A DNA stretch of 35,698 bases from an uncultured Mailhella sp. Lineage in GTDB: Bacteria; Desulfobacterota; Desulfovibrionia; Desulfovibrionales; Desulfovibrionaceae. Below the pieces are notes generated by a model. That model was not told the origin of the DNA. It ran no database searches and saw only the letters and a program-made list of their open reading frames with translations. Positions 1 through 5,867 of the stretch are shown here, piece after piece (within the stretch, counting starts at the first letter, position 1; each line of letters opens with the position of its first letter). The position numbers and the translations under genes are program-made. The stretch spans positions 1 through 35,698 of the forward strand of contig NZ_CANRLT010000021.1 in the NCBI RefSeq assembly GCF_947631555.1, given 5' to 3'.

Positions 1-238
1 GCATCTCGGTACCCTCCGTTTTTTTTTGAAGGATAGCATAATCTCAAACATTTGTCATTATAAAAGTCAGTGTCTCAGACTGTGCCACAGCCCCTGTCTT
101 GCAAAAATGTTAAAACTTCCATGGCGTCCGTCCGCTGCGTGAGAAAGCATTTGCCAGGGCGTGGCGTTTCGGGCATACTTGAAGCACCTTGCACGAAGAA
201 GCGTTTTTCGTATTCGGCCCCACAGTCCATCCTTTATC
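1..238. other. gene-free leader upstream of the queuosine operon
   Basis: I see no credible gene here. A short T-run near 20-28 may be the tail of a terminator belonging to a gene outside the window. The region should carry the promoter and 5' leader of the riboswitch-controlled operon that follows, but no convincing -35/-10 pair stands out. Confidence 0.5.
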
Positions 239-268
239 CGTGTGCTTGAAAACCACGTAAAAAACAAG
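239..268 (+). promoter_or_regulatory. probable preQ1-I riboswitch
   Basis: This compact element sits directly before the ATG of the queuosine-precursor transporter. P1 is a 4-bp stem (CGTG 239-242 with CACG 254-257) closing an 11-nt loop that ends in C253, the place of the ligand-reading cytosine in known preQ1-I aptamers. An A-rich tail (TAAAAAACAAG) follows, as in the family. The loop bases CTTG (245-248) are perfectly complementary to CAAG in the tail (265-268), giving the expected H-type pseudoknot. The tail ends two bases before the start codon and there is no other Shine-Dalgarno sequence, so ligand-bound folding would block translation initiation. PreQ1 riboswitches are known upstream of this transporter family (COG1738). 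P1 is one pair shorter than in the best-known examples. Confidence 0.68.
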
Positions 269-270
269 AC

Positions 271-954
271 ATGAAGAATTTCGCCGTCTCTCCAGTGTTC
301 ATGCTGCTCGGGTTGCTGTTCTGCACCTGCCTCATGCTCTCCAACCTCATGGCCGTCAAACTTTTCCAGTTCGGCCCCATCGCCCTTCCTGCGGCGGTGA
401 TCATCTTCCCCCTTTCCTACATCATCAACGACTGCATTTCCGAAATCTGGGGCTACCGCCGTGCGCGGCTCATCATCTGGCTGGGCTTCGCCATGAATTT
501 TCTGATGGTCGTGGTCAGTCAGATCGCTCTGGCTTTACCCTCTGCCCCCTTCTGGGACGGCGCGGAGCATTTTCACTACGTCTTCGGACTGGCCCCGCGC
601 CTCGCCTTTGCCAGCTTCACGGCGTTCCTGGCGGGTTCGTTCATGAACGCCTACGTCATGAGCCGGATGAAGGTGGCGTCCAGGGGCAGGCATTTTTCCG
701 CACGCGCCATTCTGTCCACGGTACTTGGCGAAGGGGTGGATTCCCTCATTTTCTTCCCGCTGGCTTTCGGCGGAACCATGCCTCCGGTCGCCATGCTCAC
801 CATGATGCTGGGACAGGTCACGCTCAAGACCCTGTACGAGATTCTGATCCTGCCTGTGACCGTCCGAGTGGTGGAATACGTCAAGCGCGTGGAGGGTGCC
901 GACGTGTACGATGAGCATATTTCCTACAACATTCTCAGAATACGGGAGATCTAG
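271..954 (+). CDS. yhhQ: queuosine precursor transporter (YhhQ/VUT family)
   Basis: This is an integral inner-membrane protein of 227 residues, built from about six hydrophobic segments and matching the usual length of the YhhQ/COG1738 family. Family-typical stretches include SNLMAVK near residue 25 and the polar [15 protein letters not shown] segment near 52-66, which lies between membrane spans. Members take up queuosine precursors such as preQ0 and preQ1. The ATG at 271 directly follows the predicted preQ1 riboswitch, and the stop lies only 4 bp before queC, so it is the first gene of a queuosine operon. Function is inferred from family and context, and the exact substrate is not visible in the sequence. 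Confidence 0.88.
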
Positions 955-958
955 GGAC

Positions 959-1624
959 ATGGAAAAGGCTCTCGTTATCTTCAGCGGAGGACAGGATTCC
1001 ACCACCTGCCTTTTCTGGGCAAAACAACATTTTTCCGAAGTTCGGGCGCTGACGTTTTTCTATGGTCAGAAGCACCGTCTGGAAGTGGAACGGGCCCATG
1101 ACATCGCAACTGGAGCCGGCATCCCGTTTGAGCTTCAGGATGTGAGTTTTATCAGCCGCCTGGGCCGCAGTTCCCTGACGGATCCCGCGCTCCCTGTAGA
1201 TTCTGCTGACGAGGAGAAAACGGCGGAAGGCTATCCCAGCACCTTTGTGCCGGGCCGCAATCTGTTCTTCCTCAGCGCTGCGGCAGTGTACGCCCGCGAA
1301 CACGGTATCCGCAACCTTGTTACAGGAGTATCACAGACGGACTTTTCCGGCTATCCCGACTGCCGTGACACGTTTATCCGATCGCTGAACGTCACCCTCA
1401 ATCTGGCGCTGGATGAACAATTCGTCATCCACACACCGCTCATGTGGCTGGACAAGGCACAAACGTGGGAACTGGCCGACAGACTGGGTGTCTTCGACCT
1501 TGTACGCGAGAAAACCCTGACCTGCTACAACGGCATCCCCGGAGACGGCTGCGGACGCTGCCCGGCCTGCAAGCTGCGCCGGAAAGGTCTGGAAAAGTAC
1601 CTGGCTCAGCGCGGCAAAGCCTGA
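959..1624 (+). CDS. queC: 7-cyano-7-deazaguanine synthase QueC
   Basis: QueC converts 7-carboxy-7-deazaguanine to preQ0 using ATP and ammonia. The PP-loop signature SGGQDS is at residues 9-14. The C-terminal zinc site has four cysteines (about C189, C198, C201, C204) in the family pattern C-x8-C-x2-C-x2-C. The protein has 221 residues, normal for the family. The frame is open upstream to 896, but that part overlaps yhhQ. The ATG at 959, with GGGAG about ten bases upstream, places the PP-loop at the usual N-terminal position. It is the second gene of the queuosine operon, 4 bp after yhhQ. No queD or queE is present in this window, so the earlier steps must be encoded elsewhere if synthesis is de novo. 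Confidence 0.95.
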
Positions 1625-1685
1625 ACCTTTCTTCCTGCCGGCTCGAACCTTTTCCGGCAGCCCCTCATTCCACGGAGTTGTGCCC

Positions 1686-2144
1686 ATGAATGACAGAAGC
1701 GGCGAGCTTTCCCTTCTGGGAAGGAAGACAGAGTTCCGGCAGGACTATGCCCCCGATGTGCTGGAAACTTTTGAAAACAAACACCCGGAACACGACTACT
1801 GGGTACGGTTCAACTGCCCGGAATTTACCAGCCTTTGTCCCGTCACAGGACAGCCTGACTTTGCCGAGATCCGCATCGAATACATTCCTGACACCCGCAT
1901 GGTGGAGAGCAAAAGTCTCAAGCTGTATCTGTTCAGCTTCCGCAACCATGGAAATTTTCATGAAGACTGCGTGAACATCATCATGAAGGATCTCATCGCA
2001 CTCATGGCTCCCCGCTACATCGAAGTGACCGGAATCTTCACGCCGCGCGGCGGTATTTCCATCTATCCTTTCTGCAACTACGGCAAGCCCGGGACCTCAT
2101 ACGAAAAGCTGGCCGAATACCGTTTCATGCGGCACGACCTGTGA
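1686..2144 (+). CDS. queF: NADPH-dependent preQ0 reductase QueF
   Basis: QueF reduces the nitrile of preQ0 to the amine of preQ1. At 152 residues it is the short, single T-fold type (Bacillus YkvM-like), not the long E. coli type. Catalytic Cys51 is in [13 protein letters not shown], with Asp58 a few residues on. The QueF motif ESKSLK is at 74-79, and Glu93 in FHED is the substrate-binding acid. I chose the ATG at 1686 over the in-frame GTG at 1680 because GGAG at about 1674-1677 gives better spacing. It lies 61 bp after queC and 19 bp before tilS, consistent with co-transcription. Confidence 0.95.
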
Positions 2145-2163: not shown

Positions 2164-3189
2164 ATGAAGCTTGCCCCCGATCTTTCCTTAAAAGATCTCG
2201 CCCCCTGTGATGCCCGCATGGCCTTGTCCATAGCGCGCTTTGCCGAAGAGGAACTGAAGGCGCCGCTGCGGGGACGACTGCTTGTGGCTTTGTCCGGCGG
2301 GGCGGATTCTACGGCGCTTCTGATCATTCTGTGCGCCCTGCGGCCACTCCTGGGCTGCCATGTGGAAGCGGCGCACCTCGACCACGGCCTACGGCCTGAA
2401 AGTGCTGAAGACGCCCTTGCAGCGGCAGTCTTGTGCAGAGATCTGGGGGTGCCTTTTCACGGCGGTCGGGCGGACGTTGCGCATCTGGCGCAGGAGTACT
2501 CGTGCGGCGTGGAAGAGGCCGGCCGCCGCGCCCGCTATGCCTTTCTCGAAGAAGCGCGGATTTCCTCCGGAGCAGACTGGACGCTCACCGCGCATCATGT
2601 GGGAGACCTTGCTGAAGACGTGCTGCTGCGTCTGGCACGCGGTGCTGTCTGGCCCGGTGTGGGCGGTATGCGCGCAAGGCTTGAAGAACCTGGGCGGCGT
2701 GTTCTGCGCCCACTGCTCATGCAGGAAAAAAGGAATCTCACGGCCATGCTCGAACGCCTGGAGGTATCATGGCGGGAAGACGGCTCCAATGCCAGCTGTA
2801 TTTGGAAGCGCAACCGTATGCGTCACGAACTCCTTCCCCTGTTTTTAGCGGAAAATCCCGCATTTTTCGACAGTATCCGGCGACTCTGGCGCAACGCACG
2901 GCGAGATGAAGCCTATTGGGACACTCTGCTTGCGCCCGCGCTGGAGCTTCAGACGGACGGTTCTCTGTTCATCCCCGGCAAGACACTCTCCCGCTGGACT
3001 AAGGCAGAACGCCTGAGAGCCCTGGCCGAAGCGGTACGCAGGATGCACTGCGGACAGCCACTGTGCGAGACGCTTGAACGCATGGACTCCGTCTGGAACC
3101 GGCGGCATTTTCCTCGAAGCTTTGCCTTCTCGGGCGGCCTTGAGGCAGAAGTCTGCGCCCGAGGTATAGTTTTCCGCAAACGCAGCTGA
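2164..3189 (+). CDS. tilS: tRNA(Ile)-lysidine synthase TilS
   Basis: TilS attaches lysine to C34 of the tRNA-Ile that reads AUA, using ATP. The N-type ATP-pyrophosphatase motif SGGADS is at residues 44-49. Further family stretches are the LDHGLRPES segment after the second strand and the TAHHVGDLAEDVLLRL helix, where H-x2-D-x2-E-x2-L is typical. The protein has 341 residues, shorter than E. coli TilS (about 430), so it is a compact form with a reduced C-terminal part. GGGGA lies before the ATG. It is the last gene of the yhhQ-queC-queF-tilS unit and is followed by a terminator at 3218-3255. Both queuosine and lysidine are position-34 modifications, which makes the grouping functionally coherent. 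Confidence 0.93.
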   Translation: MKLAPDLSLKDLAPCDARMALSIARFAEEELKAPLRGRLLVALSGGADSTALLIILCALRPLLGCHVEAAHLDHGLRPESAEDALAAAVLCRDLGVPFHGGRADVAHLAQEYSCGVEEAGRRARYAFLEEARISSGADWTLTAHHVGDLAEDVLLRLARGAVWPGVGGMRARLEEPGRRVLRPLLMQEKRNLTAMLERLEVSWREDGSNASCIWKRNRMRHELLPLFLAENPAFFDSIRRLWRNARRDEAYWDTLLAPALELQTDGSLFIPGKTLSRWTKAERLRALAEAVRRMHCGQPLCETLERMDSVWNRRHFPRSFAFSGGLEAEVCARGIVFRKRS

Positions 3190-5798: not shown

Positions 5799-5828
5799 AG
5801 GCCGAAATCCAACCAAGGATTCCGGCCT
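5799..5828 (-). terminator. terminator between the MFS gene and the MucR-like gene
   Basis: A 12-bp stem with one mismatch (5799-5810 with 5817-5828) lies between two convergent genes. Read on the minus strand the stem is followed by a T-rich tail (CCTTTTCTGT), so it mainly serves the MucR-like gene, but it may also stop transcription from the MFS gene. Confidence 0.75.
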
Positions 5829-5867
5829 GTGAACATGCAGGAAAGAAAGTTCTTTCCGCAAGGCTGT

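Follow-up and report, generated by a model that had tools for sequence, protein, structure and literature searches.

A probable class I, type II preQ1 riboswitch without a Shine-Dalgarno sequence at the yhhQ start codon in Mailhella

Introduction

Class I preQ1 riboswitches of type II bind preQ1 in a 1:1 ratio. The type II riboswitch of Thermoanaerobacter tengcongensis (Tte) is an H-type pseudoknot with an A before the specificity C and a U after the 5′ strand of P1; it has G-C floor and ceiling pairs and an A-rich L3, controls translation, and partly buries the Shine-Dalgarno (SD) sequence, with two of its four P2 steps being canonical (PMC11625349). The type III riboswitch in the yhhQ leader of Escherichia coli (Eco) is very small and combines AC at the specificity base with UU after the 5′ strand of P1, a loop rich in pyrimidines and an AAGG SD that P2 sequesters. 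In the type I riboswitch of Carnobacterium antarcticum (Can), which has UC before the 3′ strand of P1, two stacked preQ1 molecules occupy one pocket, and pseudoknot formation regulates more than SD burial does, a case of indirect occlusion (PMC11625349). Translational riboswitches in mRNAs without an SD have been predicted by the preQ1 field, and standard searches would miss them (PMC11625349). Bacteroidetes have mRNAs without SD sequences, and an A near the start promotes SD-less initiation there (PMC6847099). In the tandem (pseudo-cooperative) SAM-II, glutamine and TPP doublets, a riboswitch is repeated head-to-tail before a single gene, and a 2022 survey lists preQ1-I among the classes not found in tandem (Table 3 of PMC9481103); our literature searches found no later report of a tandem preQ1-I element.

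Here, a candidate preQ1 riboswitch is described in a stretch of 35,698 nt from an uncultured Mailhella sp., a sulfate reducer of the gut (NZ_CANRLT010000021.1, positions 1 to 35,698); the whole stretch is called the window below. All the features given above for Tte recur in this element up to translational control, which is proposed here, whereas its P1 has 4 bp, its P2 consists of four Watson-Crick pairs, no SD is present and the pseudoknot ends 2 nt from the AUG. With Eco it has in common yhhQ as the gene, the very small size and the AC at the specificity base, but it carries UG in place of UU, has AAAA in its loop and lacks an SD. It resembles Can in that pseudoknot formation would count for more in its regulation than SD burial; the window has AC instead of UC, and congeners duplicate the whole aptamer rather than the ligand in the pocket. 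These duplicates resemble the known doublets in being head-to-tail copies upstream of one gene, but are separated by a 3-nt linker only, with no terminator evident between them.

Results and Discussion

The yhhQ leader holds a pseudoknot that ends at the start codon

Positions 239-268 of the window read CGTG-TG-CTTG-AAAA-C-CACG-TAAAAAA-CAAG, followed by AC and by the yhhQ ATG at 271 (Table 1). The first-pass annotation had described a preQ1-I architecture here, and this was confirmed at base resolution: P1 has 4 bp (239-242/254-257) and is not extended by C238 and T258, the loop (243-253) comprises 11 nt with C253 as its final base, and the A-rich tail leads into the P2 pseudoknot, in which CTTG and CAAG form four Watson-Crick pairs (245-248/265-268). 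Its description of the junction with the gene also holds in the window sequence, as a spacer of 2 nt separates the end of P2 from the ATG and no SD of the GGAG, GAGG or AGGA type precedes this ATG in the leader; SD-like sequences were seen at many other plausible gene starts of the window, the starts being uncurated. The same annotation had ranked the element among the smallest natural riboswitches, which is true of the class, described as the smallest known natural aptamers, but not of the element within it, where its size is unexceptional.

A strict descriptor of the architecture matched the window once, exactly at 239-268, and gave no match on the opposite strand. Under a first-order Markov model 0.013 matches per window were expected, and the 90-nt leader, shuffled 200,000 times, never contained one, figures that are optimistic in that the descriptor was composed after the motif was seen. 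Thermodynamic folding by itself was not significant (z about 0), as is expected when a nested-only model is applied to a 30-nt pseudoknot, and the evidential weight therefore lies on conservation and covariation. MFE folding also allowed a competing CGUGU/ACAUG hairpin in the window that takes in the start codon; as other species have different bases at the spacer positions that it would pair, it was rejected.

Table 1. Coordinates of the predicted features in the window, with the evidence for each (A2, the alignment subset used to count covariation)
Feature	Position	Strand	Evidence
Predicted sigma-70-like promoter, TTGCCA-17-CATACT	151..179	+	9/12 matches
Probable preQ1 riboswitch, class I, type II-like (whole aptamer)	239..268	+	Structure, conservation, covariation, descriptor, own-genome model search
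P1 5′ strand CGTG; G242 as floor guanine (G5 equivalent)	239..242	+	Pairs with 254-257
L1; U243 at the position of the ligand-edge-reading U6	243..244	+	U in all aligned homologues; role from PMC11625349
P2 5′ strand CTTG; G248-C265 as ceiling pair (G11-C30 equivalent)	245..248	+	Covaries with 265-268
L2, variable loop part	249..252	+	Main variable positions within the genus
A252 before C253, AC signature of type II	252..253	+	A and C invariant in A2; criterion from PMC11625349
C253, specificity base, expected preQ1 partner	253	+	Invariant in A2; role from PMC11625349
P1 3′ strand CACG	254..257	+	Covariation
L3, A-rich tail TAAAAAA; A264 as A29/A30 equivalent	258..264	+	A-rich in all homologues
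P2 3′ strand CAAG, -6 to -3 from the start codon	265..268	+	P2-to-ATG spacing in leaders
yhhQ, queuosine precursor transporter, candidate regulated gene	271..954	+	TIGR00697 108.5 bits, PF02592 175 bits
queC, 4 nt after yhhQ	959..1624	+	TIGR00364 249 bits, PF06508 265 bits
queF (preQ1 synthase), third cassette gene	1683..2144	+	TIGR03139 174 bits; same gene order in Phocaeicola
tilS, 19 nt after queF	2164..3189	+	TIGR02432 152 bits

The element is conserved throughout the genus

The pattern TGCTTGNNNACCACGTNAAAAACAAG was present in 19 of the 19 genomes of the genus, and the reversed control pattern in none. Every match that could be placed is at a yhhQ gene; where a contig ends at the match (G016, G018), the gene is cut off. 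With one exception, every yhhQ of the family in the genus carries the element. Across 26 leaders the element had a mean pairwise identity of 96%; the adjoining 30-nt block upstream had 36% and the block beyond it 26%, while the opening 30 nt of yhhQ had 62% and its third codon positions 51%. Both helices were invariant within the genus, and P2 ended 2 nt before the ATG in 24 of the 26 leaders from congeners or the sister genus, the remaining two having spacers of 0 and 3 nt.

The exception is the second yhhQ of G014 (L109), the leader of which bears a degenerate version, CGCGAGCTTGAAACCCCGTATAGCCCAAAG, that was not counted as an element and is possibly a decaying riboswitch. Several congeners have a further yhhQ copy that bears the same element but has neither queC nor queF beside it (L104-L108, L160), and these copies belong to a different tree lineage, nested in Bacteroidota.

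Both helices covary across Bacteroidota homologues

Bacteroidota YhhQ homologues have the same element before the gene, built with different stems. Because tails of unequal length were out of register in alignment A1, the count of covariation used a subset, A2, and a structural alignment made by hand. In A2, 99.3% of the cells were paired against 85.6% after shuffling, 13 cells were double-changed and four pairs had changed on both sides, two per helix, counts that are inflated by relatedness and that owe their stem variation to the Bacteroidota homologues, with none from Mailhella alone. The covariation score was 0.289 against 0.063 for shuffled alignments, a value that 0 of 500 shuffles reached, and controls with the structure slid along A2 scored far lower and failed. 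In the wider hand-made alignment, seven distinct P1 stems from Bacteroidota and Mailhella were all paired, and random pairing of the P1 3′ strands did as well in only 2 of 5040 arrangements. P1 variants included CGTG/CACG, GGGG/CCCC, GGAG/CTCC, AGAG/CTCT and AGTG/CACT; those of P2 were CTTG/CAAG, CTAG/CTAG and ACAG/CTGC, the changes in A2 running from UA to AU and from UA to CG, and in Phocaeicola CTAG or CCAG faces CAGG with an A.A mismatch inside the helix. By the descriptor, the Prevotella yhhQ leaders L074 and L084 held no element. The covariation of P1 and P2 in homologous leaders, the conservation and the association with queuosine genes together support the preQ1-I reading of the first-pass annotation.

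The arrangement CGTG-N11-CACG makes the DNA an inverted repeat close to the start codon, and such a dyad, very highly conserved in primary sequence, stem included, could be the operator of a queuosine-responsive repressor. This is highly improbable, since an operator would not tolerate the compensatory changes seen among the P1 stems; the second, interleaved helix P2 covaries as well, the spacing from the dyad to the P2 tail varies, and transcription is predicted to start about 50 nt upstream of the element. That the sequence merely lands ribosomes or enhances an SD-less start without sensing a ligand is scarcely credible: such a role would fit the A-rich stretch directly before the AUG in an SD-free leader, but it has no need of conserved and covarying P1 and P2 or of the invariant U, C and G, and the element is restricted to queuosine genes.

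Upstream of P1, leaders of Phocaeicola and Bacteroides (L007, L009-L015, L019-L024, L208 about 5815-5835) carry a conserved GCCGTGAATAGCGGY block just before the stem, which could form a small hairpin. Prevotella elements L032, L048, L050, L053, L054, L057, L069 and L079 have a long L2 insert between P2 and the specificity C, in several cases with an apparent extra hairpin.

Pocket positions place the element in type II of class I

Judged from sequence and alignment, the element at 239-268 is very probably a preQ1 riboswitch of class I and, within it, of type II. Its H-type pseudoknot, made of P1 and the loop-tail P2, is perfect in the window and covaries in both helices. The pocket positions U243 (U6), G242-C254 (the closing P1 pair, or floor), C253, A264 (A29/A30) and G248-C265 (ceiling) agree with the published class I set, and U243, A264 and G242-C254 are conserved in A2 (roles from PMC11625349). 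The genes that follow are queuosine genes, yhhQ-queC-queF in the window and queC or a QueD-like gene elsewhere. Type III would show UU after the P1 5′ strand and an AAGG SD in P2, where the window has UG and CAAG without an SD, and the UC that type I has before the P1 3′ strand is replaced by AC in both the window and A2.

The pocket also bears on the ligand. A riboswitch of the same fold might respond mainly to preQ0 or another 7-deazapurine: import by YhhQ reportedly favours preQ0 over preQ1, type II Tte binds preQ0 only 17-fold worse than preQ1 (PMC10622847), and the cassette includes both the preQ0-making QueC and the preQ0-consuming QueF. We consider this unlikely, as all the positions expected of a class I preQ1 pocket are present (U243, G242-C254, C253 and A264) and preQ1 is bound by the class I subtypes that have been characterised, preQ0 binding less tightly where it has been reported (PMC10622847, PMC11625349).

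The Rfam PreQ1 model (RF00522), to which the first-pass annotation had looked for a check, did not recognise the element: the window gave no match either at gathering or at E≤10, a search of the whole own genome gave nothing at the element site, and six Bacteroidota or Mailhella loci gave nothing against Rfam at gathering, the RF00522 gathering threshold of 39 bits being a detection threshold and not a biological criterion. The leader at the orthologous position in Xylanibacter ruminicola (L036, before yhhQ-queF) matched RF00522 with 28.6 bits (E=9.8e-5), PreQ1 being the only significant one of 4227 Rfam families, and the sole match in leader L068 was a non-significant one to RF00522 (9.7 bits). 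Because the orthologous L036 leader matches this model, the 39-bit threshold appears to miss the lineage of the element, which points to a sensitivity gap of the model; in the SD-less Bacteroidota the homologues lay below the Rfam threshold in every leader checked. A model of the element run on the own genome scored the window element at 50.2 bits (E=5e-7) and the next best match at 15.9 bits, where the gap matters more than the score, as the window sequence is part of the model.

Promoter and genes of the cassette

Transcription is predicted to begin at about 185-188, some 50 nt ahead of the element; most congeners that share the operon have TTGCnn-17-CATAGT upstream of their element. Instead of implying a start after position 239, the promoter-like site at 151-179 lies upstream of it, and the element is therefore expected within the transcript 5′ leader. 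No terminator was found in the window between the promoter and yhhQ, which favours translational control. Since queC starts so close behind yhhQ, translational coupling of the two is plausible. The gap between queF and tilS varies in congeners from about 30 to over 600 nt, and inspection of Bacteroidota loci detected no tilS next to the cassette; because this linkage is not conserved, control of tilS by the element, which the first-pass annotation had included, finds little support, and its membership of the regulon is doubtful.

Both tgt and a gene of the QueD family are present in the own genome. The model search revealed a copy of the element before a stand-alone queC in a Bacteroidota genome (L205). 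At L204, likewise in a Bacteroidota genome, a preQ1-I-like element stands before a QueD-like gene that was identified by eye from its sequence.

A putative switch at the start codon

The best reading of these data is that the element would repress translation through folding at the start codon. At low preQ1 (or preQ0), the weak P1 hairpin would leave the A-rich tail UAAAAAACAAG single-stranded before the AUG; L3 is probably an unstructured ribosome-landing stretch in this unbound state, on which the 30S subunit could initiate yhhQ translation without an SD. As preQ1 accumulates, it would pair with C253 between P1 and P2 and close the CUUG/CAAG pseudoknot up to the last pair, 2 nt from the AUG. 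The closed pseudoknot, at -32 to -3, would sterically block initiation, the output of yhhQ would fall, and queC and queF would follow via coupling or polarity. The element would then be a compact natural SD-less example in an otherwise SD-using bacterium.

The cassette groups with Bacteroidota

The best YhhQ matches outside the genus came from Bacteroidota, with up to 71% identity, whereas other Desulfovibrionaceae genera reached at most 39%, except for the sister genus g13 (about 62%). The gene order yhhQ-queC-queF recurs in Phocaeicola, where identity is about 73% for QueC and about 81% for QueF. In the midpoint-rooted YhhQ tree, the Mailhella sequences took up at least two places, with Bacteroidota and set off from other Desulfovibrionaceae (99/97). 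No other match to the element was obtained under strict filters in 297 genomes of the phylum.

Transfer of the cassette, switch included, from Bacteroidota is the simplest reading and a probable one. The direction is suggested by the breadth of the distribution and by one Mailhella lineage nested in Bacteroidota. Such an ancestry, from a group whose mRNAs lack an SD, would explain the SD-free platform found here. Since the operon is common to both groups, the data suggest that the whole cassette, with the switch, crossed phyla in the gut, and if it did, the expression platform works with both kinds of ribosome. A Bacteroides finegoldii plasmid match that bears the cassette was considered as a transfer vehicle and rejected, as its neighbours rlmH and nadC look chromosomal. 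A scan of viral contigs found no copy of the motif.

Tandem copies in congeners

The window holds a single copy of the element, and two complete copies with no gene between them were not found in it. Two complete head-to-tail elements are present in G011, G012, G014, G016 and G017 and, at a contig end, in G018, which gives five or six tandem congeners, the two places in G016, both at contig ends, being counted as probably one site. The layout consists of 30-nt copies joined by a 3-nt CGC linker, with a period of 33 nt and the second copy 2 nt from the ATG (locus L159 in G017). G017 is a single 3.17-Mb contig, so its tandem is no assembly-edge effect. The relatives thus offer the same 30-nt aptamer before the same gene in one copy versus two.

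The additional, upstream aptamer would most likely steepen or strengthen repression. Chances seem evenly balanced on the broader proposal, drawn from sequence comparison, that the element would represent a Bacteroidota-derived, SD-less preQ1-I class acting purely by folding at the start codon, with a tandem in Mailhella relatives that would be cooperative or pseudo-cooperative. If true, this would be the first tandem preQ1 riboswitch, and duplication would give the steep response that type I obtains via two ligands per pocket.

The L2 loops of the tandem copies differ: AAAA in the second copy, against AGAA, CTAA or CAAA in the first. A single copy is present in G013, with the loop and upstream flank of a first copy and the downstream flank of a second, an arrangement that is consistent with a deletion between the repeats.
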